Below are positions 12,823 to 32,023 of a stretch of 44,813 bases of DNA, one piece after another. The stretch is from a virus, in the IMG/VR virus record IMGVR_UViG_3300010413_000061, positions 1-44,813 of that record, one strand, 5' to 3'. Positions within the stretch are counted from its first letter, which is position 1. Each line of letters opens with the position of its first letter. Under the pieces are notes generated by a model. That model searched no databases, was not told where the DNA came from, and worked only from the letters and a program-made list of their open reading frames with translations. The position numbers and the translations under genes are program-made.

Positions 12823-12939
12823 CTAAATAATTCTATCTAGATACTGAAAAGCATATACGTTCCACCATGCATCAAATAATGCGTGGTGCTTACCAGCAAC
12901 TAGTCCAGCAGTTTCTACATCCACGGAAATAATTTTCAT
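12823..12939 (-). CDS. 38-residue remnant of a DEDDh 3'-5' exonuclease
   Basis: This short frame starts at an ATG in an ATGA overlap with the preceding stop and has GGAG seven bases upstream. It starts MKIISVDVETAGL, the Exo I motif of DnaQ/oligoribonuclease-type exonucleases (D7, E9). It then jumps to KHHALFDAWWNVYAFQYL, which matches the Exo III motif HxAxxDA (H18, D23). The Exo II region, normally about 100-150 residues between them, is absent, and the two ends are joined in frame. It cannot be an active exonuclease by itself. It looks like an internal-deletion remnant that kept its translation signals; a peptide with a new role is possible. The terminator follows closely. Confidence 0.6.
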   Translation of the reverse strand: MKIISVDVETAGLVAGKHHALFDAWWNVYAFQYLDRII

Positions 12940-13202
12940 TTACATTCTCCATATCGCACAAAACCAATGAGTTCGCCTGTCTCGTCGTCTATCTTCATGG
13001 CTATCAAATCTTGATTGCAGACAGATAGTATGCCGTTGATGACACCTATAGCCCGCAAACGTTTGTCTGACGAAACCTGAATATGTTTGGAGTCAGCAAG
13101 TTCGTCGCTAACGCTGACACTATAATTAAAAAATCGCTGTATTGCCTGATTGTCAAGATCTAGACAGTCAGTCAAAAACGACAAAACATCGTTTGTTATC
13201 AT
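12936..13202 (-). CDS. Small conserved-looking phage protein
   Basis: 88 residues from the ATG that overlaps the upstream stop (ATGA) and has GGAG eight bases upstream; a longer frame exists but lacks such signals. The sequence is a compact mixed helix/strand protein: MITNDVLSFLTDCLDL, a helix with NQAIQRFFNY, then an ADSKHIQV strand and a DDETGELIGFVRYG hairpin. I do not recognise a function. It is coupled on both sides, to the zinc-ribbon peptide upstream and the exonuclease remnant downstream. Confidence 0.65.
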   Translation of the reverse strand: MITNDVLSFLTDCLDLDNQAIQRFFNYSVSVSDELADSKHIQVSSDKRLRAIGVINGILSVCNQDLIAMKIDDETGELIGFVRYGECK

Positions 13203-16166: not shown

Positions 16167-16400
16167 CTACCACCCTGGTTTAGCCTTGATCTGTCTAGCA
16201 ATCGCTATAACATTATCTGCCGCGATAGATCTTTGCGCTTTACTGACTCCAAATCCAGCTTGTAAACCACCATGGTTTATTGGAATAGATGGAATCATTG
16301 CGTCTCTAAGTAATTCAACGGCACTATACAACTGATCTAGAAGTTCTTTGTTAACAACTTCCTCGTTCGATTTGTATATAGGTGCTTTAGGCTTTGCCAT
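16167..16400 (-). CDS. Small hypothetical protein
   Basis: 77 residues from the ATG with GGAGA eight bases upstream (MAKPKAPIYKSNEE); it overlaps the end of the ATPase gene by 14 bases. It has a central amphipathic helix (KELLDQLYSAVELLRDAMI) and a Gly-rich turn. No family is recognised. Coupling to the ATPase suggests a possible partner, but nothing in the sequence proves it. Confidence 0.55.
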   Translation of the reverse strand: MAKPKAPIYKSNEEVVNKELLDQLYSAVELLRDAMIPSIPINHGGLQAGFGVSKAQRSIAADNVIAIARQIKAKPGW

Positions 16401-17607
16401 CGACAATTTCTCCGTCTTCAATAATCACCTGACATTCTTCGCCCTTCGAAACACGTTCTATCCATACTTGAGCATCAGCCTTTTGGGCCATATCGGCAAT
16501 CATTTTTAAGTTACCAGAATCAAGCATCGAGCCTTCCCTGATAAGCAATACCTTTAGTTTTGGATTCATAGCTAATCCCATAGCAACAGAAATCTTCAAC
16601 TTCTGTGCCGTTGAGCATTGATCGAACGGAATTCCGTCAAAGACAACTTCGTCGCTATCCATACCAAGTTTTTTGATTGGAAACTTAGCGTCTGCCAATT
16701 TCTTTTGTTTTGTCTCCTTGATGTCATCTAATTTGCCGCTTAATTCTTCTGACTGTTTGCGTAGTTTTTTGAGTCTGTCGCCAAGATCTTGTCGATTTTT
16801 ATTGGCTCGTACTTTCTTGTTAGTATCTTCGGCATGCTGAATCTGCTCTTCCAGCTTCTGAACATCTTGTAGTTTACTTGTTTTAAGCTGCGTCTCAAGA
16901 GACTGAATTTCCTTGGACAAAACCTTCGCACATGATTGCAACTCAGCTATTTTAGCCATAGTCGTCGCAAGACGTTCTTGGGTCTGCTCCATCGTGCTTT
17001 GTAAGCTGTTGATTTGATTATTGTGTGTAATCGCCTTGGATAACTCTGATGATAGCCGAGAAACAGAGACTTCTTCGGCAGGAACATTATCATGTTTTTC
17101 TGTGGCATCAAACTGTGCTCTTAAATCTTTCCCTTGTCGATTCACGTTAGCGCGTTCTTCAAACACCTTTTTGTATTGAGCGTCCAAATCAGAAAAGTCC
17201 AAACCAACGACTTTCTTGAGAGTTTCAATACGACGTTTTGCGTCGAGACGTGAAAACTCAAGTGGATCAAACGTAAGATTTCCAATAAGCTGATCTAACA
17301 TCGCCTGTGGACTAGCAAATGTTGCACCATCCTTATTTTTAACGACTACACGAGTACCTTTTTCAGTAAATGTACGTGTTACTTCGATTTCACCAAGATC
17401 AACAACAATTCTGGCTTTTTTTTGTCCATTACGAATTGGTTTACTTGGAATGTTTGCCTGACCACCAAGTGCATACTCTATAGAATCTAGAACAGATGTT
17501 TTACCCTGTTCATTATCTCCACCAATAACAATAGTAGAACCGTCTGGTTCAATTCTGACTGCTTTGAGATGTTTTACGTTCTCGGCTTCAAGAGCTACTA
17601 TCTTCAT
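16387..17607 (-). CDS. SMC/RecN/SbcC-like ABC ATPase
   Basis: A 406-residue head-and-coil ATPase. The N-terminal lobe has Walker A GDNEQGKT (30-37). A coiled coil of about 130 residues (roughly 170-300) is followed by the C-terminal lobe, with a signature-like CSTAQKLKISVAMGLA and KVLLIREGSMLD where Walker B and D-loop are expected. The aspartate of Walker B appears as Arg, with Glu after it, so the active site is unusual. Such proteins act in DNA repair or end processing, often with an Mre11/SbcD nuclease; none is seen in this window. It is the first gene of the non-structural island, preceded by its own sigma70-like promoter and the tail-tube terminator. Confidence 0.82.
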   Translation of the reverse strand: MKIVALEAENVKHLKAVRIEPDGSTIVIGGDNEQGKTSVLDSIEYALGGQANIPSKPIRNGQKKARIVVDLGEIEVTRTFTEKGTRVVVKNKDGATFASPQAMLDQLIGNLTFDPLEFSRLDAKRRIETLKKVVGLDFSDLDAQYKKVFEERANVNRQGKDLRAQFDATEKHDNVPAEEVSVSRLSSELSKAITHNNQINSLQSTMEQTQERLATTMAKIAELQSCAKVLSKEIQSLETQLKTSKLQDVQKLEEQIQHAEDTNKKVRANKNRQDLGDRLKKLRKQSEELSGKLDDIKETKQKKLADAKFPIKKLGMDSDEVVFDGIPFDQCSTAQKLKISVAMGLAMNPKLKVLLIREGSMLDSGNLKMIADMAQKADAQVWIERVSKGEECQVIIEDGEIVDGKA

Positions 17608-17762: not shown

Positions 17763-18788
17763 TTATAGGCCAGCGGGATCTTTACTGTGTGTCACTGTAA
17801 GATTGTTAAAGTTGCTGTAGTTATAGGTCACTGTCGCGTTACCGCCACCAGCATCACCACCGCCATAAGTAATCGACGCAAGCTTATTTTTAGATCCAAG
17901 ACTGAGTCTCGTTGTGTCGTTCATTAGAATATCTATTGTCTGATTTGTGAGGTTTGTTTGTTCTGCCTTGGCGTCAATTACGTCACCTTCTGAGGTTGTG
18001 GTTTCTATTGCACAAGTTACCTCTGTCGGGAACGATACAAAACGGTGATACGGGCCTCTACGACCAAGTTCGAACAGTTCGTCCCGACCAAGATCGACCG
18101 ATATTGTAACGGTCTGGATGTGAGCAGGAAACGCTCCGCTGACTTCTACGTTGTTTCCAGAAGCATCAATGCCTGGGATCTCTGTTGGCCAAAGACTAAC
18201 AGATCCAGCGGCACCAGACCCCATAATAACATCTTCTCGTTGCTGTACACCACTAGGAGCAGAACTCGTGCCGTCAAATCCTACTGGCGAAAACCACGTT
18301 GCGGCAGCAAACCATTCTTTGTCGTTACCTACTAATGTAACATCTTCTGTCGAGCTACCTTCGACATTCAGGGTATATGTTAGAGACGAAACATACAGTC
18401 CCGAAAGACCAACGGTTTGAACAGGAACGCCACTTGCATTATCTTGAGAGTCTGAATAAATATTTAGAGCACCATATGCCCGCTCATTAGACCGTCCAAC
18501 AAGAGTTGCCGACGTTGCCTGTTGCGTGGCCATGTGATACAGTAGTGGAGCGCCATCAAGAACCTTTTGCGCGGTCAATTCGATATCGGGAATACCCTCG
18601 ATATTCTCGTATAGTTCAAGCTGACCTAGTTCAAATATCTGTTCCAAGTTAAAAGTAGTGTTCAAACCAACAGACTGCACACCACTGGCAGTCAAGAACC
18701 CAGATGGATCGCCCACCCCATCAACGACATCGTGTGGGGCTAAGCCAAGAGCCTGGATCGCGTAGAATACACGATTATTCGTAGCCAT
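17763..18788 (-). CDS. Major tail tube protein candidate
   Basis: 341 residues, beta-rich and acidic. The N-terminal part holds FELGQLELYENIEGIPDIEL, and a related block FELGRRGPYHRFVSFPTEV recurs near residue 235, so the protein looks like two related tube-type domains. It also has a Gly/Asn-rich C-terminus. The position between neck/completion genes and the tail-assembly operon is that of the tail tube. The gene has its own GTGTATAAA element 40 bases upstream, a GGGGAG ribosome site and a strong terminator downstream, as expected for a highly expressed virion protein. Family identity is from pattern and order. Confidence 0.75.
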   Translation of the reverse strand: MATNNRVFYAIQALGLAPHDVVDGVGDPSGFLTASGVQSVGLNTTFNLEQIFELGQLELYENIEGIPDIELTAQKVLDGAPLLYHMATQQATSATLVGRSNERAYGALNIYSDSQDNASGVPVQTVGLSGLYVSSLTYTLNVEGSSTEDVTLVGNDKEWFAAATWFSPVGFDGTSSAPSGVQQREDVIMGSGAAGSVSLWPTEIPGIDASGNNVEVSGAFPAHIQTVTISVDLGRDELFELGRRGPYHRFVSFPTEVTCAIETTTSEGDVIDAKAEQTNLTNQTIDILMNDTTRLSLGSKNKLASITYGGGDAGGGNATVTYNYSNFNNLTVTHSKDPAGL

Positions 18789-21086: not shown

Positions 21087-23453
21087 CTATATCAACTCCC
21101 AAAAACTAATACAGTACCTACTTTGTCTTAGTCCTACCGGAATCGGATTTCTAATTAGTCTAACTCTTGCGATAGTCGTGCCAATTTCTTGATAGTCAAC
21201 TATTGCTGTTCTTGCACGCACAATATCGTCTGCTTCTGTCGAGAAAGTCTTAATTCGTACAACTGACTTATAGTTCTCTAGCGAGATTCCGTATTTTTCA
21301 GAATCACGAGGATTCCATTTTATAAGCGCTTCTATACATCTGGTCGCCTGTGTTTCTTCGAACCCCTTGCCTTTGCACCATGGGCACTGCCTACTTCTTG
21401 TGAACGGACGTGGTCCACCTGTCTTATAAATTCCAGTAGACCTGTTTCTTATTGGGTCGAAGATACAGTTCGAACATGGTTGTCTAACTGGATCAAATTC
21501 TAGCAAAACGCTTTTTCCAAGCTGATTAATGAGGGCATCTATTCTTGTCTGATATATATTGACAACTTCGTTTGTTATCTGCAAAGACGCAGATGCATCA
21601 AGTGCTGGACAAGCTAGTGCTGGAAGTGGTTCTATTCCGTTAACAAAGAGATCTAGTATTCCACTGGTTTGGCCACTAACAACTATAATTCCAGAACCAT
21701 CTACGAAAAGCGGTAAGTTATTTGTTGATTGAGCAGCACCACCAGTCAAGATAAGATCTATTGTTCCACTACTTGTATCCATTCCATGTTCTGTCAGGTT
21801 CACAATTCCACTCGACACGTCTGCTCCTTCAACAAACATGTCTGTGGAACCACTTACTGACTCATAACTATTTATAACGAGATCTATTGTATTAGAAGAG
21901 TATTCGTGACTCATTATTGTTAGATCTAATACACCTGAAGAGTTTTGTATATTCGACAATCCGTCAACAAACAGATCGGTACTTCCACTAAGTGGTTGAT
22001 AACCGAAAGATACAAGATCTATAGTACCGCTCGGTTTTCCCGTTATATGAAGAGACATTGAACGACTAAGGAGATTGATACTTGATATGAACAAGGTAAT
22101 ATCATTAGTCGTTGTTGCTATTCCAGATATCGCAAGGTCAATCGAACCAGAACTACTTGTGTGTCCAGCTATTGATACATCTAGTGTACCGCTAACCGTT
22201 TCGTTCCCAACGATCGTAAGATCAAGAGTGCCACTATTGCTTGTTATACCGTTAATATATAAATCTGAGTTTCCGCTTGCTACACCGTAACCGCTTTCAA
22301 ACAAATCTATTGAGCCAGAAGGTTTTCCTGTAATAATCAGATCCATATTCTGATTGATGGTGTTTGAACTTCCAACAAACAATGAAAGATTGCCGCTAGA
22401 AACGTCTTTGCCTAATGTGTGTAGATCTAAATTGTTGTCGGATATGTTTAGGCTGCTAATAAATAACGGTATTGTTCCACTAGGTTTTCCTGTAATAGAC
22501 AGATCAAAACTACCGCTTGTACTGTCATATCCAGCGGATACTAGATCTATAGAACCACTAAGGATGTTGTGTCCGAGCGCCGTGAGATTGAGCGTTCCAC
22601 TAGTGTTTTGATTCCCCTCTGTAAATAAATCTATTGAACCACTGATGATTTGTTTGCCTAGCGTGTATAGATCTGTGGTACCACTTAAGCTAAAATGTCC
22701 AGCGATTGATAAGTTGACAGTACCAGAAGGAACAGTGATGTTTTCAATATACAGATTGATGTTTCCACTTTCTAATCCGTAACCAATTGTAGACAAATCG
22801 ATAGACCCACTTGCCGTTTCATACCCATCTATGATAATGTCCAGATTACCAGATGTCGTTTGATATCCTTCGACATATAAGTCTCCGGATGTTGAAATTG
22901 GTATACCAGCAACTAGTCCATTTGTAAATAATGTTGTTGTACCAGATGTGGCTGTCCAAGACTGGTCTTCTGTTATATTCGTAATAATCTCGTTTGCTGT
23001 TGTTCCAACACCAATGGTTGCGCTTTGATCCATATTGGAATCACAGGTAAACTCGATTTCTACTGCCAATCTATTGTCTACATCTTCTTCTGTACGAGTC
23101 CATGATGGTGCAACAGGACTGAAAGACGTTGTAGCGACCAATGAATCCTGGGCGGTATAAGTACCTGTCTGTAAGACGGTACCAGCACTATCCAACCTTA
23201 CGCACCTTGCACGAGCCAGTATTTTGTTGTTACCTACATCAATCTCTACCTCGACAGTCCATGTGCCGCCACTTTCCCATAGCTCGCTATTAGGAGTACC
23301 ACTTGGTGTTATAAAACCACCGGTAGTGACTTGTGCTGCTGTCAATGCAATTGTTATGCCTGTATCCGTACCTGTTCCGCTTGACAGAACCTTATTGAAT
23401 TCTGCAAATGGCGATAAATCGGAGTTAGTTGTCTTCTGAATGTATGTTGGCAC
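21087..23453 (-). CDS. DLF-repeat protein ending in the neck zinc domain
   Basis: 788 residues in three parts. An N-domain of about 165 residues (SDLSPFAEFNK, then GGTWTVEVEID, RCVRLDSAG, EEDVDNRLAVEIEF) is shared with the next two genes upstream. Residues about 180-605 are tandem 14-residue SGxxDLxxxGxx repeats, more diverged than in the neighbour. The last 185 residues are the CxxC/CxxC zinc domain ending SRYCISFWELI. It starts at a GTG abutting the previous stop, and the GGGAG ribosome site lies inside the codons of the previous gene's FWELI end. It is probably a collar or neck fibre anchored by the zinc domain (inference). Confidence 0.68.
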   Translation of the reverse strand: MPTYIQKTTNSDLSPFAEFNKVLSSGTGTDTGITIALTAAQVTTGGFITPSGTPNSELWESGGTWTVEVEIDVGNNKILARARCVRLDSAGTVLQTGTYTAQDSLVATTSFSPVAPSWTRTEEDVDNRLAVEIEFTCDSNMDQSATIGVGTTANEIITNITEDQSWTATSGTTTLFTNGLVAGIPISTSGDLYVEGYQTTSGNLDIIIDGYETASGSIDLSTIGYGLESGNINLYIENITVPSGTVNLSIAGHFSLSGTTDLYTLGKQIISGSIDLFTEGNQNTSGTLNLTALGHNILSGSIDLVSAGYDSTSGSFDLSITGKPSGTIPLFISSLNISDNNLDLHTLGKDVSSGNLSLFVGSSNTINQNMDLIITGKPSGSIDLFESGYGVASGNSDLYINGITSNSGTLDLTIVGNETVSGTLDVSIAGHTSSSGSIDLAISGIATTTNDITLFISSINLLSRSMSLHITGKPSGTIDLVSFGYQPLSGSTDLFVDGLSNIQNSSGVLDLTIMSHEYSSNTIDLVINSYESVSGSTDMFVEGADVSSGIVNLTEHGMDTSSGTIDLILTGGAAQSTNNLPLFVDGSGIIVVSGQTSGILDLFVNGIEPLPALACPALDASASLQITNEVVNIYQTRIDALINQLGKSVLLEFDPVRQPCSNCIFDPIRNRSTGIYKTGGPRPFTRSRQCPWCKGKGFEETQATRCIEALIKWNPRDSEKYGISLENYKSVVRIKTFSTEADDIVRARTAIVDYQEIGTTIARVRLIRNPIPVGLRQSRYCISFWELI
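21630..22905 (-). repeat. 14-residue (42-bp) SGxxDLF repeat array
   Basis: In-frame tandem units of the consensus SGSIDLFxxGxx inside the 788-residue gene. Synonymous variation is high, so copies are old. At least one LFISSLN cassette also occurs here, near 22450. Confidence 0.85.
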
Positions 23454-26400
23454 TTATATCAACTCCCAAAAACTGACACAATATCTGTCTTCCCGTAAGC
23501 CAACAGGCACTGGCCCACGAATAAGTCTGCATGTTAATCTCAAAACAACAGATTGTTCGTCGTCAATAATAGCAAACTTAGCTCTTGATATCTCGTCTGC
23601 GTAAATAAGCAATGTTTTTACTCTGACAATACCATTGTGATCAGATACTGAAATTCCATAGTCTTTCATTTCGCGCGGTTGCCATTTGATTAATCCCTTT
23701 ATACATTTCTGTCTTTGGGTTTCTTCAAATCCTCTTCCTTTACACCATGGACATTGTCTACCCCTTCTAAATGGTCTTGGGCCACCAGATTTGTAGATAC
23801 CGGCAGATCTTTGTCGAATAGAATCAAATACACAGTTGGGACACTCTGTTCTTGTTGGATCAAACTCAAGTATTATGTCTTTTCCAAGTTGGTTAATCAA
23901 CGCGTCAATTCTTGATTGATAAATATCTATTATGGTGCTATCTATTTGTAGCGGTAGAGTTGGATCTAGGATCGGACACGAGACAGGTGGTTTTGGCTCA
24001 ATACCATTGACAAATAGATCTATGTCGTTGTTGATTCCAACAATGCCGTCGGTGAATAATGTTATTGAACCACTTTCCGGGAATATACCAGACCCCTCGA
24101 CAAATAGCGTCATTTCACCACTGACATCTATTGAGACACCAGAGATGAAAATATCCATGCTTCCGCTACTTGTTTCGTGACCACCTATGTTAAGATCAAT
24201 CGATCCAGACACATCACTGTGTCCGTTTATAAACAGATCCAGATCACCAGAAGCAGACCTATTTCCTATTGTTAGCAGATCTACTGTTCCGCTAGACGTA
24301 TCTAATCCGAGAACCGTAAGATCCGTTGTACCAGATGCAGTTTCATGTCCTGTTGTTGTCAAGTCGATAGAGCCACTTGCTGTGTCGTAGCCATGACTGA
24401 ACAGATCAATGGAGCCTGACGCGGTATCTTGTCCGTTTATAAATAAGTCTATCGATCCAGATGAAAGAACTGAACCGCCAACATACAGATCTGTATTTCC
24501 GCTAGATGTTTGATAACCACGAACGAACAAATCTATATTACCGCTGGAAGTATCATATCCTTTGGCAACAAGATCTATATTTCCACTTGCAAGTTCGTGG
24601 CCCTGTTCAAAGAGATCTATTGTTCCGGACGGCTTACCAGCCACAAACAATGAAAGATTCTCACTAACGATATTAAGACTGCTGATAAACAGTGGGATTG
24701 TTCCACTAGGTTTACCAGCAATTACTAGACTAATATCTCCAGAGGCATTGTTTTGTCCAGCAATAGATAGATCTATATTCCCGCTTGCTGTGTCTTGTCC
24801 GCTTATAAACAGATCGACCGTTCCACTAGCTTGCTGTCGACCTTCTATAAAAAGATCTAATGAACCACTGGCATTCTGATGTCCGTGAATAAATAGATCA
24901 ACAGAACCACTGGCTGTATTATGTCCGTTAACGAATAAATCAACTGTTCCGCTCGCAGTATCGTGTCCGTTAACAAATAGATCGATGTTTCCAGAAGGCA
25001 ACCCGGCAATAAATAGGTCAACAAAACCACTTGCTGATTCATGTCCGTGTTCAAATAGGTCTATTGATCCAGACGGTTTACCTGCTATGAACAAATTGAG
25101 ATTGTTACTGGCGAGATTTAAACTGCTTATGAACAGAGGTATAGTGCCACTTGGTTTGCCAGCTATAAACAGGCTTATGTCGCCACTTGATGGTTGGTGT
25201 CCTGCTACAAATAGGTCTACTGATCCGCTAGCTGTTTCTTTGCCGGAAACAAATAGGTTTAATGTGTTGCTATATGATACATGGCCGTTAACAAACAGGT
25301 CTATCGAACCACTGGCAATTTCATGCCCAGCGGTGAACAGATCTATATTGCCGGATGGTAGACCAGCAATAAACAGGTCTATGTTACCGCTTGATGTTTC
25401 GTGTCCTTGCTCAAATAAATCTATTGATCCAGACGGCTTGCCTGCTATAAAGAGATTCAAGTTTTGGCTAGCTACATTCAGACTGCTAATGAATAGAGGA
25501 ATAGTACCGCTTGGCTTACCGGCTATGAATAGTGTGATATCCCCACTGGCGGTATTGTGTCCGTTTACATATAGGTCAACAGAACCGCTTGCTGTATCCT
25601 GACCGCCAACAAATAGGTCTATATTGCCACTCGCCGTATCATGGCCATTCACATATAGATCTACGCTTCCGCTTGCGGAACCTTGGCCAGACACGAAAAG
25701 ATCTATGAGGCCGCTTGCTGTATCTTTGCCGGAAATAGATAGATCGAGAGATCCGCTGGCCGTATCTTGTCCACCAACAAAAAGATCGATTGATCCACTA
25801 GCTGAATCGTGCCCATTGATGTAAAGATCTAGACTTCCGCTTGCAGTGTCTTGTCCAGCAATAAACAGGTCTAATGTGCCACTCGCAGTATCGTGGCCTT
25901 GAACATATAGATCTATACTGCCAGAAACCAAGACTTCAGCAAGACCAGCAATAAATAGATCAACTTTGTCAAGCGTGTCATCAAGATCGATTCCTGCTGG
26001 TCCCTGAAGTGGCGCGCGGCGTATATCGACTATACCAGACGAACCAATAGCCAATTTGCTTACTTCACCCTCTATGTTGTTAGTGAAATAAGCGTTCTGG
26101 ACAAGTGCGTCCAAAACCAAATACAGAGGATCATTTATGCCAGACGCCAACGTTTCAATACTAGACCCATCTAGATTAGATCTCTGTATTGTGTTTAATG
26201 TTGTGTCTGTCCAGTATAGCTTGTTATTGAATTTGTCAACTTTAAGTCCGTAAGGAGTATTCAATCCGCTAGTAATTATTGTGTGATTCGATCCATCGAG
26301 ATCAGAACGTTCTATTGTTCCACTAGCACTATCTGTCCAATACAGATATCCAGACGATTCAAATATGTCTATTCCACGAGGCTGACCTATACCATCAGAA

Positions 26401-28403
26401 CTGTCTAAAAGCGTTGTAAAGTTAGATCCGTCTGTGTTGACTCTGTTTATTTGGCTAGTACCAGTATCAGCAAAATATAGATATCCGCTTGTGGCATCGA
26501 TTGTGAGTCCGCGAATCCCTGAGATACCGGTATTAAGAACTACCTGTGGATCACTGCCATCGAAATTACAAGACTTGATATCCTGGGCTATTACGTCTCC
26601 CCAGTAAACTCTCCTGTTGATTTTGTCTAATATGAGACCCTCTGGATAAACAATGTCTCCTAATGAACCAGACACAAATAAATCAATAGATCCAGATTCA
26701 GATGGTGGTGCGACGCCGCTAATGTAAAGGCTTATATTTCCGCTTGATGGTTCAGCTAGTGTTACTCCGGACACAAATAGATCTATTGTACCGCTTACAA
26801 AATCATTGCCTGTTACGGATAAGTCGATTGTTCCACTAGCTGATTCGTGTCCATGTTCAAAAAGATTGATGCTTCCGCTTGTTATTTCATATCCAGCAAC
26901 AAAGATATCGAGTGTTCCACTGGATTGTTCAAATGCGCTTAAATATAGATCTGTATTTCCGCTTGCTGTATTAGATCCCGCGACAAACAGACTTGTGTTA
27001 CCACTAGCGTTTGTGTATCCTTCTATGAACAGATCTATGTTGTTGCTCGACAAATTTAGACTACTGATAAATAATGGAATAGTCCCACTGGGTTTTCCGG
27101 CTATAAATAAACCTATGTCACCACTTACTGTTTGTTTTCCGTCGACAAATAGATTGATTGTTCCGCTAGACAAGGAGTGACCAACTGATAGCAGATCTAC
27201 ACTACCGCTTGATTGATTACTTCCAAGCACAAACAAGTCTAGCGTTCCACTGGACTGTTCGTTGCCAGCAACAAACAAGCTTAGTGACCCACTAATAGAA
27301 TCGTATCCAGTGGTATATAAATTTAGTGTTCCGCTAGCTACGTCTTTGCCGTTTGCGTATAAGTCTATATTTCCACTGCTTGTCGTATGTCCATCAACAA
27401 ACAATGTCGCATTACCGCTGATAGCCGTAGCACCAGCAGAACCATTAATGAATAGATCTATGGAGCCGCTAGCAGTTCCTGCTCCATTAATTGACAGGTC
27501 CAAAGATCCGCTTGCGGTATTACTACTTAATGTAAACAGGGTTACAGAGCCTGATGCTTGTGGAGCCACGCCACTTACATAAAGATCCAGAACGCCGCTT
27601 TGTTGTTCGTGACCGTGAATAAATGAATCTATCGATCCACTTGCTGTATCATAACCACTTAAGTATAAATTTATGTTTCCACTTGATGTCTGATGTCCAG
27701 TAGTCGATAAGTCTATTGACCCACTAGAACTATCATAACCATGGGAATATAGATCTATTGAACCACTAGCTACATCGTATCCGGAAGTAAATAGATCAAG
27801 TGAACCACTAGCATTTGCCGAACTAGAAACAAACAGATCTAATGAACCACTGGCTGTTGTATATCCATTGACAAAAAGATCTATATTTCCAGACGCAGAA
27901 GATGAACTGCTAACATTTTCCGTTATATTAGCTGTTGTTTTATCTATAACGGTACCCGTGGCAAGTTCAGCAGTTTGGCTCATACTGCTTCCGTTTGCCC
28001 ACTCTATTTCTATCGCAAGTCTATTGCCAGCATCTTCTTCTGATCTTGTCCAGGATGGAACAGAAGGAGTAAAGGTCATAGATGAACTTAATCCTTGTGG
28101 AGATGTATAAGTTCCTACCTGTAAAACATTTCCAGCACTGTCTAGTCTGACGCACCTTACTCGTGCGTCAATCTGCATATTTGCAGTATCAAAGTTTAAG
28201 TCAACGGTCCATGTTCCAGTATTTTCCCAGAAATCACTATTTGGGAAACCGCTTGGGGTTATGAATCCACCTGTTACAACTTGACTACCAGTAAGTGAAA
28301 TTGTTATAAATGTATCCGTACCGGTATTGCCTTTGAAAACCTTGTTGAACAAGGAAAACGGCGTTGCATCCGAATTGGTTTCTTGATAAACGTAGATCGC
28401 CAT
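23454..28403 (-). CDS. Giant DLF-repeat/propeller protein with neck zinc domain
   Basis: 1649 residues. The shared N-domain is at about 1-165. A first block of 14-residue SASGSIDLFVNGHDT repeats runs to about 580, then a YWTD-type beta-propeller at about 585-805 (RRVYWGD, GYLYFAD, GYLYWTD, KLYWTD blades), then a second long repeat block to about 1465. The end is the zinc domain (CPNC, CPWC) closing in RYCVSFWELI. Longer cassettes with PSGTIPLFISSLN recur several times. There is no signal peptide. The repeats probably form a rigid beta-rich stalk with the propeller as a binding head, and the C-terminus anchors it at the neck; this is inference. The ribosome site is weak (GGGTAG). Confidence 0.72.
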   Translation of the reverse strand: MAIYVYQETNSDATPFSLFNKVFKGNTGTDTFITISLTGSQVVTGGFITPSGFPNSDFWENTGTWTVDLNFDTANMQIDARVRCVRLDSAGNVLQVGTYTSPQGLSSSMTFTPSVPSWTRSEEDAGNRLAIEIEWANGSSMSQTAELATGTVIDKTTANITENVSSSSSASGNIDLFVNGYTTASGSLDLFVSSSANASGSLDLFTSGYDVASGSIDLYSHGYDSSSGSIDLSTTGHQTSSGNINLYLSGYDTASGSIDSFIHGHEQQSGVLDLYVSGVAPQASGSVTLFTLSSNTASGSLDLSINGAGTASGSIDLFINGSAGATAISGNATLFVDGHTTSSGNIDLYANGKDVASGTLNLYTTGYDSISGSLSLFVAGNEQSSGTLDLFVLGSNQSSGSVDLLSVGHSLSSGTINLFVDGKQTVSGDIGLFIAGKPSGTIPLFISSLNLSSNNIDLFIEGYTNASGNTSLFVAGSNTASGNTDLYLSAFEQSSGTLDIFVAGYEITSGSINLFEHGHESASGTIDLSVTGNDFVSGTIDLFVSGVTLAEPSSGNISLYISGVAPPSESGSIDLFVSGSLGDIVYPEGLILDKINRRVYWGDVIAQDIKSCNFDGSDPQVVLNTGISGIRGLTIDATSGYLYFADTGTSQINRVNTDGSNFTTLLDSSDGIGQPRGIDIFESSGYLYWTDSASGTIERSDLDGSNHTIITSGLNTPYGLKVDKFNNKLYWTDTTLNTIQRSNLDGSSIETLASGINDPLYLVLDALVQNAYFTNNIEGEVSKLAIGSSGIVDIRRAPLQGPAGIDLDDTLDKVDLFIAGLAEVLVSGSIDLYVQGHDTASGTLDLFIAGQDTASGSLDLYINGHDSASGSIDLFVGGQDTASGSLDLSISGKDTASGLIDLFVSGQGSASGSVDLYVNGHDTASGNIDLFVGGQDTASGSVDLYVNGHNTASGDITLFIAGKPSGTIPLFISSLNVASQNLNLFIAGKPSGSIDLFEQGHETSSGNIDLFIAGLPSGNIDLFTAGHEIASGSIDLFVNGHVSYSNTLNLFVSGKETASGSVDLFVAGHQPSSGDISLFIAGKPSGTIPLFISSLNLASNNLNLFIAGKPSGSIDLFEHGHESASGFVDLFIAGLPSGNIDLFVNGHDTASGTVDLFVNGHNTASGSVDLFIHGHQNASGSLDLFIEGRQQASGTVDLFISGQDTASGNIDLSIAGQNNASGDISLVIAGKPSGTIPLFISSLNIVSENLSLFVAGKPSGTIDLFEQGHELASGNIDLVAKGYDTSSGNIDLFVRGYQTSSGNTDLYVGGSVLSSGSIDLFINGQDTASGSIDLFSHGYDTASGSIDLTTTGHETASGTTDLTVLGLDTSSGTVDLLTIGNRSASGDLDLFINGHSDVSGSIDLNIGGHETSSGSMDIFISGVSIDVSGEMTLFVEGSGIFPESGSITLFTDGIVGINNDIDLFVNGIEPKPPVSCPILDPTLPLQIDSTIIDIYQSRIDALINQLGKDIILEFDPTRTECPNCVFDSIRQRSAGIYKSGGPRPFRRGRQCPWCKGRGFEETQRQKCIKGLIKWQPREMKDYGISVSDHNGIVRVKTLLIYADEISRAKFAIIDDEQSVVLRLTCRLIRGPVPVGLREDRYCVSFWELI
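24000..25965 (-). repeat. 42-bp SASGSIDLF repeat block, propeller-distal
   Basis: Uninterrupted in-frame tandem array, consensus HDTASGSIDLFVNG, the most regular array of the window. It contains at least three longer cassettes with the LFISSLN unit (near 24700, 25130 and 25490), indicating segmental duplication. Confidence 0.88.
26660..27900 (-). repeat. 42-bp SASGSIDLF repeat block, N-domain side
   Basis: Same unit as the block after the propeller, with one LFISSLN cassette near 27065. The YWTD propeller at about 25990-26650 interrupts the two arrays. Confidence 0.88.
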
Positions 28404-28408
28404 TTAAG

Positions 28409-31400
28409 CTACCCGTACAGTTCCTGTAAATTCGATCCATCAATGTTCATGATAAATATCTTACCAAGTATTGATTCTGCAAAATACAGCTTGTTTGACG
28501 CTGTTGATTCATGCCCGTGAACAAAAAGATTCACAACACCAGATTCAAGTCCGTTACCATCAACGAACAGATCTATTGTTCCAGATGGTAATCCATTAAT
28601 AAACAGATCTATATTGCCGCTAGACGGTTCATGTCCCTGTTCGAATAGATAGATGGTGCCAGATGGTTTTCCAGCAATAAAAAGATTGATGTTATTACTT
28701 GAAAGATTTAGGCTACTGATGAATAATGGAATTGTTCCACTTGGCTTACCAATTATTGTCAGCGTTATGTCACCGCTAATACTCTGGTGTCCAGCGCCAT
28801 AAAGATCTATTGATCCGCTTGATGTATCAAAGCCGCCAACAAAGAGATCTAATGAACCACTAGATATGTTGTTTCCGTTGATAAACAAATCAACAGAACC
28901 ACTGGCAACATCATACCCCTGTTCAAAAAGAGATAGTGTGCCGCTAGCATTATTTAGCCCACCAACAAATAAGTCGACGCTACCACTAGACGTGTCATAG
29001 CCGCCAACAAATAGATCTGTGGAACCGCTGATACTGTTGTGTCCAGCAACAAACAGGTCAAGAGAACCGCTAGATGGTACGTCCCCGTCTATAAACAGAT
29101 CAATGGAACCGCTAGAAGTGTCATGCCCGCGTACTGATAGGTCTATTGTTCCGCTAGCTGATTCGTGACCTTGTTCAAATAGGTCTATGTTACCACTGAC
29201 GGTTATATGTCCGTCTGCGAAAAGATTCAACGTATTACTAGATGAATCTTGGCTACTAACAAATAACGTTAAAGATCCACTTGCAGAGTCTGACCCAAAA
29301 GCATATAAATCTACAATGCCACTTTCGATGTTTTTGCCAGCAACAAAAAGATCGAGAGAGCCACTTGCAACATCGTATCCATGTTCAAAAAGATCTATTT
29401 GACCAGAAGGCTTACCGGTGATTACTAGATCTATTGATCCACTAGACTGTTGATGTCCGTCTGTGAATAAATCTAAAGTTCCGCTAGCTTGATCATAACC
29501 AGACGTAAACAGGTCTAATGCGCCACTCGCTGATCTATGACCACCAACTGTGAAATCCAAGGTTCCGCTTGAGTCTTGATGCCCAGCGACAAACAATGGG
29601 AATGCAGTTGTATCAATTATAAATCCATCCAACAAAGATGAATTCTTTTGTGGATGGAAAAACATAAACGTTTCTATGTTAGATCCGTCCATGTTCGAAC
29701 GAAGTATCAAATTGTCTGTTAGGTCATTCCAATAGATCTTTCGTGCGACAGTATCGAGTTCCATTCTGTTGGGCAAAGTTGTATCAGTTGACGATATTAT
29801 TGTCTCTATGTTGCTTCCATTTAAATCCGATCTATATATTTGTTTCGTTGTTTGATCAATCCAGTACATCTTTGAGTCTACTGGATCTATTGCTATCGCT
29901 GTGGTGTTTCCATTTAATCCAGAGGACGATGGTATTATGGTTGTTGTGTTTCCACCGGAAAGATTGCAACGACGAATCAAATCGCTTTGTACATCTGAGT
30001 AGTAAAGTCTGTCATTAACTTCATCAACAGCTATCGCACCGGGACGAGGCAAACCGCTTACTATCACAGTTCTGTTTGTTCCATCTAGGTCCGATCTCTC
30101 AATCAAACCATTGATGAATGCATCTGCCCAGAACAGAAAACCGCTTGCATTATGTATTCCAATGTATTTCGGAAAAGTAAAACTACCAGACACTAAAACT
30201 GTTTTATTTTCTCCATCTTTGTCTGTGGTAAATATATTGTCTGTTGCTCCAAAAGCATCAACGATAAATAGATCTTGATCTGGAGACGATATGTCTATGT
30301 CGAGGAAATCTACTCCGCTTCCGTCAAGAATAAAGTTGTATCCATTGCCGTCAGTAAATGTTCGTCTAACTTCTCTTCCATATTCTGTCGTAAAATAGAT
30401 TGCCCCATAGTTTTTGATTGAATCATGACCAACGACAAACAATGTCGTTGTTCCAGACGAATCTATGTGACCGTCAACAAACAGATCTATACTACCAGAA
30501 GACGTATTGTGCGCGTTGACATACAAATCCAAAGATCCACTTGCAGGACTGTATCCTTCTATGAATAGATCTATGTTCCCAGACGAAATAGTGGAGCCTT
30601 CGACACCTTCTGTAAACAAAGTAATGTTTCCAGATTCCTGTAGGTGTCCATGGGCGAATAAGTCTAGGGATCTAAGCGGATCAACAGTTATGCCAAATGG
30701 ATCAAAATCCGTTGCATTTGTATATATTGTCTCAAGGCCGGTTCCATCTGTATTTCCGCGAGCAACTTTTTGGTCGCCTATTTGATCGTCGTCTGTCCAA
30801 TAAATTTTCTTATCAGCAGTATCGACATGTATTCCAAATGCATCGCGGACATTTCCAACAAAAATATTTTCTGAATTGCTAACGCCATCCAGATCCGTTT
30901 TTGTTATGTACAGGATTGTTTGTCTAAACAATTTTCGTTCTATTGGGTCTATAGCTATAGAATATGTGTCTGAGAATAGACCTGTAGCAACAATCTCTGT
31001 CGAAACAAATTCGTAATCCGTTTTTGATATCACGCCGCTACTACGATCTAGCCAATATATTTCTTCGGCAAGTGAATCAAAAGCAAGTGATTCGACATCA
31101 TCGTACACTCCAGAATACATGACTTCTGGATTAGTCCCGTCAACGTTACATCGAAGAACTCTTTTTGCGCCTCCCGTTGAACCATCTGACCAATATATTT
31201 TTCCAAGGGACGGTATGTATATAAGTGCATCATCTACGTCGCCGGAAACAACAACGTTAGAAACTACACCGTCGTCTAGGTCAACTTTTCTTATTATGTT
31301 GGAGGCGCTATCTGCAAAATAAAGATAGCCATTATTGATATCAACCGCCATACTATGAACGGAACTACGAGAACCACCTGAAATAAATCGTTCTGGGGTA

Positions 31401-32023
31401 TGAAATCCAAGCTGGTCAATCTCTATTGACCAAATTTGATCTTCAATATTGTCAGACCAATAGACTCTCCGCGTATTGGTACTTCTGTGACCATGAATAA
31501 ATAAGTCTATATCACCGCTTCGTCGGTTTTGGGCAATGTTTGTGTCAACTCTATCGTCATTATCACTTAACCCTATAGTGAGAGTCTGCTGCATAAATTC
31601 ATCGTTGTTTGAGAATTCGAATTCAACAGCAAGTCTATTGTCTACGTCTTCTTCTGCGTTATTCCATGACGGATTGACTACCGTATACGTTTTTGTCCCA
31701 GCAGTAAGTATTTTTTGTGTATTCCAGTTTCCAGTTTGTAGAACTGTTCCTGAAGAACTGACTCGTACAGCGCGACACTTTCCCCTAAGAGCAAAGTTTC
31801 CGGCACTAACGTTTAGAACTACTGTCCATGTACCACCATCTTCCCACATATCACTATTTGGAACACCTGATTCTGTTATCCATCCATGATATACAGAATC
31901 AAGCGCATTTACAATAATATTTGCACTATCGTTAGTGGTTGCATCCTTTAAGTCCCTGTTAACATCGGTGAATGGACTTAGATCAGAAGTATCCTTGTGT
32001 AACGAACCGGAAACGGATGCCAC
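28409..32023 (-). CDS. Giant double-propeller DLF-repeat virion protein
   Basis: 1204 residues, starting at a GTG with GAGG eight bases upstream. After the shared N-domain (to about 170) come one DLF unit and a first YWTD propeller (about 180-450, with blades such as RRVYWSD and GYLYFAD). A short DLF block, a second propeller (about 535-795, blades with GFLFWAD, RLYYSD) and a long DLF block of about 360 residues follow. It ends abruptly with one orphan blade motif, KLYFAES then NIDGSNLQELYG. Unlike its two downstream paralogues it lacks the zinc domain, as if the 3' part had been lost. It is likely a virion appendage; receptor or glycan binding is inferred. Confidence 0.72.
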   Translation of the reverse strand: MASVSGSLHKDTSDLSPFTDVNRDLKDATTNDSANIIVNALDSVYHGWITESGVPNSDMWEDGGTWTVVLNVSAGNFALRGKCRAVRVSSSGTVLQTGNWNTQKILTAGTKTYTVVNPSWNNAEEDVDNRLAVEFEFSNNDEFMQQTLTIGLSDNDDRVDTNIAQNRRSGDIDLFIHGHRSTNTRRVYWSDNIEDQIWSIEIDQLGFHTPERFISGGSRSSVHSMAVDINNGYLYFADSASNIIRKVDLDDGVVSNVVVSGDVDDALIYIPSLGKIYWSDGSTGGAKRVLRCNVDGTNPEVMYSGVYDDVESLAFDSLAEEIYWLDRSSGVISKTDYEFVSTEIVATGLFSDTYSIAIDPIERKLFRQTILYITKTDLDGVSNSENIFVGNVRDAFGIHVDTADKKIYWTDDDQIGDQKVARGNTDGTGLETIYTNATDFDPFGITVDPLRSLDLFAHGHLQESGNITLFTEGVEGSTISSGNIDLFIEGYSPASGSLDLYVNAHNTSSGSIDLFVDGHIDSSGTTTLFVVGHDSIKNYGAIYFTTEYGREVRRTFTDGNGYNFILDGSGVDFLDIDISSPDQDLFIVDAFGATDNIFTTDKDGENKTVLVSGSFTFPKYIGIHNASGFLFWADAFINGLIERSDLDGTNRTVIVSGLPRPGAIAVDEVNDRLYYSDVQSDLIRRCNLSGGNTTTIIPSSSGLNGNTTAIAIDPVDSKMYWIDQTTKQIYRSDLNGSNIETIISSTDTTLPNRMELDTVARKIYWNDLTDNLILRSNMDGSNIETFMFFHPQKNSSLLDGFIIDTTAFPLFVAGHQDSSGTLDFTVGGHRSASGALDLFTSGYDQASGTLDLFTDGHQQSSGSIDLVITGKPSGQIDLFEHGYDVASGSLDLFVAGKNIESGIVDLYAFGSDSASGSLTLFVSSQDSSSNTLNLFADGHITVSGNIDLFEQGHESASGTIDLSVRGHDTSSGSIDLFIDGDVPSSGSLDLFVAGHNSISGSTDLFVGGYDTSSGSVDLFVGGLNNASGTLSLFEQGYDVASGSVDLFINGNNISSGSLDLFVGGFDTSSGSIDLYGAGHQSISGDITLTIIGKPSGTIPLFISSLNLSSNNINLFIAGKPSGTIYLFEQGHEPSSGNIDLFINGLPSGTIDLFVDGNGLESGVVNLFVHGHESTASNKLYFAESILGKIFIMNIDGSNLQELYG
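28510..29600 (-). repeat. 42-bp SGxxDLF repeat block
   Basis: In-frame 14-residue units of the double-propeller gene, including an LFISSLN cassette near 28710. A shorter block of the same unit lies at about 30420-30670 between the two propellers. Confidence 0.85.

Follow-up and report, generated by a model that had tools for sequence, protein, structure and literature searches.

A 38-codon phage reading frame that is likely the remnant of a DEDDh exonuclease gene after a recent in-frame deletion

The DNA analysed here, referred to as the window, constitutes an entire virus record (44,813 bases) that carries terminase, portal, capsid, tail and tape-measure-like genes, and it is probably a fragment of about 45 kb from a larger tailed-phage genome of 120-180 kb. 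A leftward operon in this window has as its final gene an open reading frame of 38 codons, with the product MKIISVDVETAGLVAGKHHALFDAWWNVYAFQYLDRII. The preliminary description had identified this product as a 38-residue fusion of the Exo I and Exo III motifs of a DEDDh exonuclease, with an intact frame, a good ribosome site and ATGA coupling to the gene before it. All of these features can be read directly from the DNA. The fusion lies on the minus strand exactly at positions 12939 to 12823, it begins with an ATG that is preceded by a GGAG ribosome site 7 nt upstream, and this start codon overlaps the stop codon of a neighboring 86-residue gene within the tetranucleotide ATGA. The features needed to interpret the locus are listed below.

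12939..12823, minus strand: 38-codon frame, a putative internally deleted DEDDh (Rv2179c-like/DnaQ-like) exonuclease gene, assigned from the open reading frame and profile matches
12886..12939, minus strand: N-terminal part, comprising the start codon and the Exo I block IISVDVETAGLVAGKH with D7 and E9 kept (N-half profile E=2.2e-5, model positions 5-22 of 210)
12826..12894, minus strand: C-terminal part, comprising the Exo III block HxAxxD with H18 and D23 kept and the last helix to the natural end (C-half profile E=8e-12, model positions 179-201 of 210)
12880..12894, minus strand: predicted deletion junction around the KH/H codons AAG CAC CAC, placed where the two profile matches meet, with about 150-167 residues fewer than in relatives
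13196..12936, minus strand: 86-residue gene upstream of the stub, whose TGA overlaps the stub ATG (translational coupling)
12793-12768, minus strand: strong intrinsic terminator of 11 pairs, just past the stub, which closes the operon
16387..17607, minus strand: RecF/SMC-like AAA ATPase gene, which shares a displaced slot with the stub
16167..16400, minus strand: 77-residue gene that follows the ATPase gene; in the related record G003, its homologue and the 3' end of the full-length exonuclease gene overlap

Two other regions of the window deserve separate mention. Positions 21087-32023 encode three adjacent and very large proteins with many copies of a short repeat resembling SGSIDLFVxGHDTA, and some of these proteins include YWTD-type-like stretches. 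A 429-residue protein encoded at 279-1568 matches proteins of about 810 residues in relatives, but over its last 96 residues only, and its shorter N-terminal part is without a match.

Both halves of the 38-residue product are homologous to a single exonuclease family, as judged by sequence profiles. A family profile built from ten full-length relatives and run over all six frames of the window matches the stub frame alone (E=1.2e-9), and the next matches have E values of at least 0.19. The preliminary description had also proposed that the middle of the enzyme is missing between Exo I and Exo III, and a profile of this middle portion, sought across all six frames as a split gene or a moved piece, indeed finds no match anywhere in the window (best E=0.21). 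When used alone, the stub retrieves nothing relevant from Pfam and does not reach the Rv2179c-like family, and its match in PHROG is to 'RNase H' with E=0.013 over residues 14-36. A chance resemblance to the motifs is ruled out by the profile E values, and an intron or intein is likewise ruled out by a middle that is absent, not interrupted.

The stub retains four of the five catalytic residues of the family. Exo I is represented by D7 and E9 in the sequence VDVE, and Exo III-epsilon by H18-H-A20-L-F-D23, which conforms to HxAxxD. The missing fifth residue is the aspartate of Exo II, whose motif (GxNxGxFD in the relatives' family) is absent from the window, and four of the five strands of the RNase H-like core are gone as well. 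Mapping onto the model of a full-length relative, G005, indicates that only strand 9-16 and helix 190-209 are retained. Because the Exo II aspartate and most of the core are lost, nuclease activity is not expected of the modeled stub.

Full-length forms of the gene are present in 12 related records, each as one open frame of 188-218 residues, and none of these is shortened. The relatives that carry it are phages of 119-180 kb. Homologues of the stub are thus longer proteins, and both of its ends align within one frame in each of two cases: a 204-residue frame in G003 and a 220-residue frame in G005 match its start and its end separately, at sites about 500 bases apart. More generally, single frames in relatives hold both pieces about 150-167 residues apart, and a 299-residue frame in G007 was also matched by the stub. 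A search of viral contigs with a DNA pattern for HHALxDAWxN yielded ten loci, all of which are full-length or cut solely by the end of the locus. The wider phage group was recovered with the 362-residue neighbor as bait, which gave seven related records (five of them of 160-181 kb), and also with the tail gene at 17763. No match was found by direct DNA search of the stub region against phage records, and the 86-residue protein, the tape measure and the terminase gave no confirmed relatives when used as baits in viral contigs. One relative of this group (L143, CP070695.1:37977-59083) resides in a contig titled Candidatus Heimdallarchaeota archaeon bin6 chromosome, where the tail gene is 67% identical and the ATPase gene is at 80495; this could be a real provirus or a mix-up of binning or assembly.

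The full-length relatives match the Rv2179c-like 3'-5' exoribonuclease domain of Pfam (PF16473, E=3.1e-7) and the DNA polymerase exonuclease subunit family of PHROGs (phrog_192, a phage DnaQ-like family). The stub shares with these families the D-x-E of Exo I and the HxAxxD of Exo III, but it has 38 residues rather than about 190-220 and is without Exo II and the fold core. A profile search of solved structures with a full-length relative returned a 3'-5' exonuclease (PDB 7t2s), PolC, oligoribonuclease, RNase T and DNA polymerase III epsilon. The AlphaFold model of the G005 protein (pLDDT 75.8, pTM 0.79) matches the folds of Cap18 and RNase T. RNase T and Cap18, the latter being the E. coli UPEC-117 3'-5' exonuclease of structure 7t2s, match the full-length relative best both in fold and in sequence, although identity is at most 20% over the fold alignment and the window has only the end pieces.

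The sequence at the join suggests how the middle portion may have been lost. In relatives, the codons on the Exo I side (mostly [GDN]KHxxL) and those on the Exo III side (xHHAL) can be aligned in register so that their H and L codons coincide, and the two His codons are separated by 151-167 residues. Within these two regions of the relatives' DNA, shared runs of identical bases reach 6-7 in length. The junction in the window reads GKHHAL, which is the expected remainder of a deletion between the [GDN]KHxxL and xHHAL sites. From comparison with relatives whose proteins are no more than about 50% identical, we infer that the ancestral gene product was a stand-alone DEDDh 3'-5' exonuclease of about 190-220 residues, belonging to the Rv2179c-like/DnaQ-like group, with its gene carried by a large tailed phage. 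The short imperfect repeat copies 'GKHxxL' and 'xHHAL' may then have been the end points of one in-frame deletion of about 450-500 bp, wherein replication slippage or illegitimate joining would have removed everything between the end blocks. The start codon, ribosome site, coupling, natural stop and terminator would all have been outside the deletion, and therefore would have been left untouched. With a 38-residue product lacking Exo II and most of the fold, the locus would now be a pseudogene that has not yet eroded. Our view is that the 38-codon frame is most likely the dead leftover of an exonuclease gene that was recently inactivated by one such in-frame deletion.

The preservation of the remaining residues bears on the age of this putative event. 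The kept parts include nine positions that are invariant in the full-length alignment, and the stub has the family residue at every one of them; four of these are catalytic. In simulated neutral drift, the probability of keeping all nine is 0.11 at 0.10 substitutions per site and 0.037 at 0.15 substitutions per site. Because the survival of all nine is improbable after longer neutral drift, the data fit a deletion that is recent, at about 0.15 substitutions per site or less, and they can be explained without selection. The preliminary description had argued that random decay would not usually keep both motifs and all signals, and concluded that the frame is either recently deleted or retained. 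This argument is weak, since a single internal deletion spares the ends and keeps the motifs and signals automatically; their presence therefore speaks for a young event and not for a product in use.

The genomic setting of the stub is unlike that of its full-length counterparts. In seven relatives, the exonuclease gene is located 1.1-1.9 kb upstream of the RecF/SMC-like ATPase gene, and in full-size relatives it precedes the terminase gene and is about 50 kb from the 362-residue gene. (The large terminase of G003, encoded at L029, G003:26961-30293, is itself a frame of 1123 residues in which two matching parts are separated by about 415 additional residues, resembling an intein or another in-frame insertion.) In the window, by comparison, the ATPase gene, the 77-residue gene and the stub all reside in the interval bounded by the tail gene at 17763 and by the 362-residue gene, whereas the same slot in relatives holds only a small-gene cassette. 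A homologue of the 86-residue gene is followed in G005 by an unrelated gene. The full-length gene that the preliminary description proposed to seek in the same slot of relatives does exist in them, but beside the ATPase gene some 50 kb away. This comparison of gene order makes it appear that the exonuclease/ATPase cluster moved within the genome, and the middle of the exonuclease may have been lost before, during or after that move. None of the other related loci that were examined shows this apparent relocation of the ATPase and 77-residue genes (window 16167-17607) to the tail-gene region.

These arrangements also raise the possibility that the stub is what remains of a second or relocated copy of the gene, and that a full-length exonuclease is encoded elsewhere in the same genome, which is compatible with the deletion described above. 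The relatives' gene is upstream of the terminase and outside the span of the window, which represents about 45 kb of a probable 120-180 kb. However, the ATPase and 77-residue neighbors accompany the stub in its region, suggesting a move rather than a copy, and the relatives' records hold the exonuclease gene in a single copy. We consider a second copy rather unlikely.

An assembly artefact or a minority variant is unlikely, but presents a real residual risk. In this case, the viral population would have the full-length gene, and the assembler would have joined its ends or taken a rare deleted variant. The window is a single record, and no other record among 2.9 million viral contigs has the same fusion with the same spacing. 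Yet the join is clean and in frame, and the junction repeat amounts to a few bases in relatives, a length that k-mer assemblers would not normally collapse. Moreover, most other genes of the window that have good matches can be aligned with their counterparts in relatives over nearly the full length, and so truncation is not a general property of this record.

We regard as very improbable the proposal that the stub is a retained mini-protein that is translated and under selection, whose role could be that of a binding peptide or of a dominant-negative partner for a DEDDh exonuclease that dimerizes or for another protein. A more specific version, in which a working micro-protein made from the coupled start acts through a single helix and the retained metal-ligand residues, perhaps by binding or poisoning another exonuclease, is fractionally less probable still. 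The open frame, GGAG, ATGA coupling, natural stop and terminator are all intact, the nine invariant residues are kept as noted above, and AlphaFold models the stub alone as one long helix (pLDDT 83, pTM 0.36). Nevertheless, a young neutral deletion predicts an identical picture, and the helix model derives from one sequence and is unlike the parent fold, of which Exo II and four core strands are lost. Furthermore, the junction does not recur in the viral contigs, and no phage record matches the stub query over 80% of its length. The preliminary description had left the choice between a very recent deletion and a retained mini-protein; the evidence favors the deletion, and nothing supports the mini-protein. 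Recent loss is the best reading of the locus, and a functional micro-protein is the less likely one.

Loss of this gene would be in keeping with its distribution. The exonuclease was not found in the large relatives G002, G006, G018, G022 and G023 (the first four are among those of 160-181 kb, and the records may be incomplete), and no exonuclease remnants were detected in 73 loci around the tail gene with a profile that was later checked on positive loci. Because it is absent from several other relatives, the gene looks accessory or dispensable in this phage group. The exonuclease and the neighboring ATPase gene may form a cluster that is mobile within the genomes of these phages.

In-frame internal-deletion gene remnants occur in phage genomes, and the stub resembles them in that its ends and signals are kept and the affected gene is accessory; its middle, too, may have been lost at a short repeat. 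It is no different in kind from these remnants, but is unusual for its shortness and for retaining four of five catalytic residues. A literature search for a precedent of such an Exo I-Exo III exonuclease stub found nothing relevant. Should the stub prove to be both translated and conserved, it would offer a rare case in which a deletion within an enzyme gene gave rise to a new micro-protein. As it is best read, the locus would be an ordinary snapshot of gene loss, wherein an accessory phage exonuclease is captured soon after an in-frame deletion, and it cautions that intact motifs and perfect expression signals are no guarantee that a short frame encodes a functional small protein.
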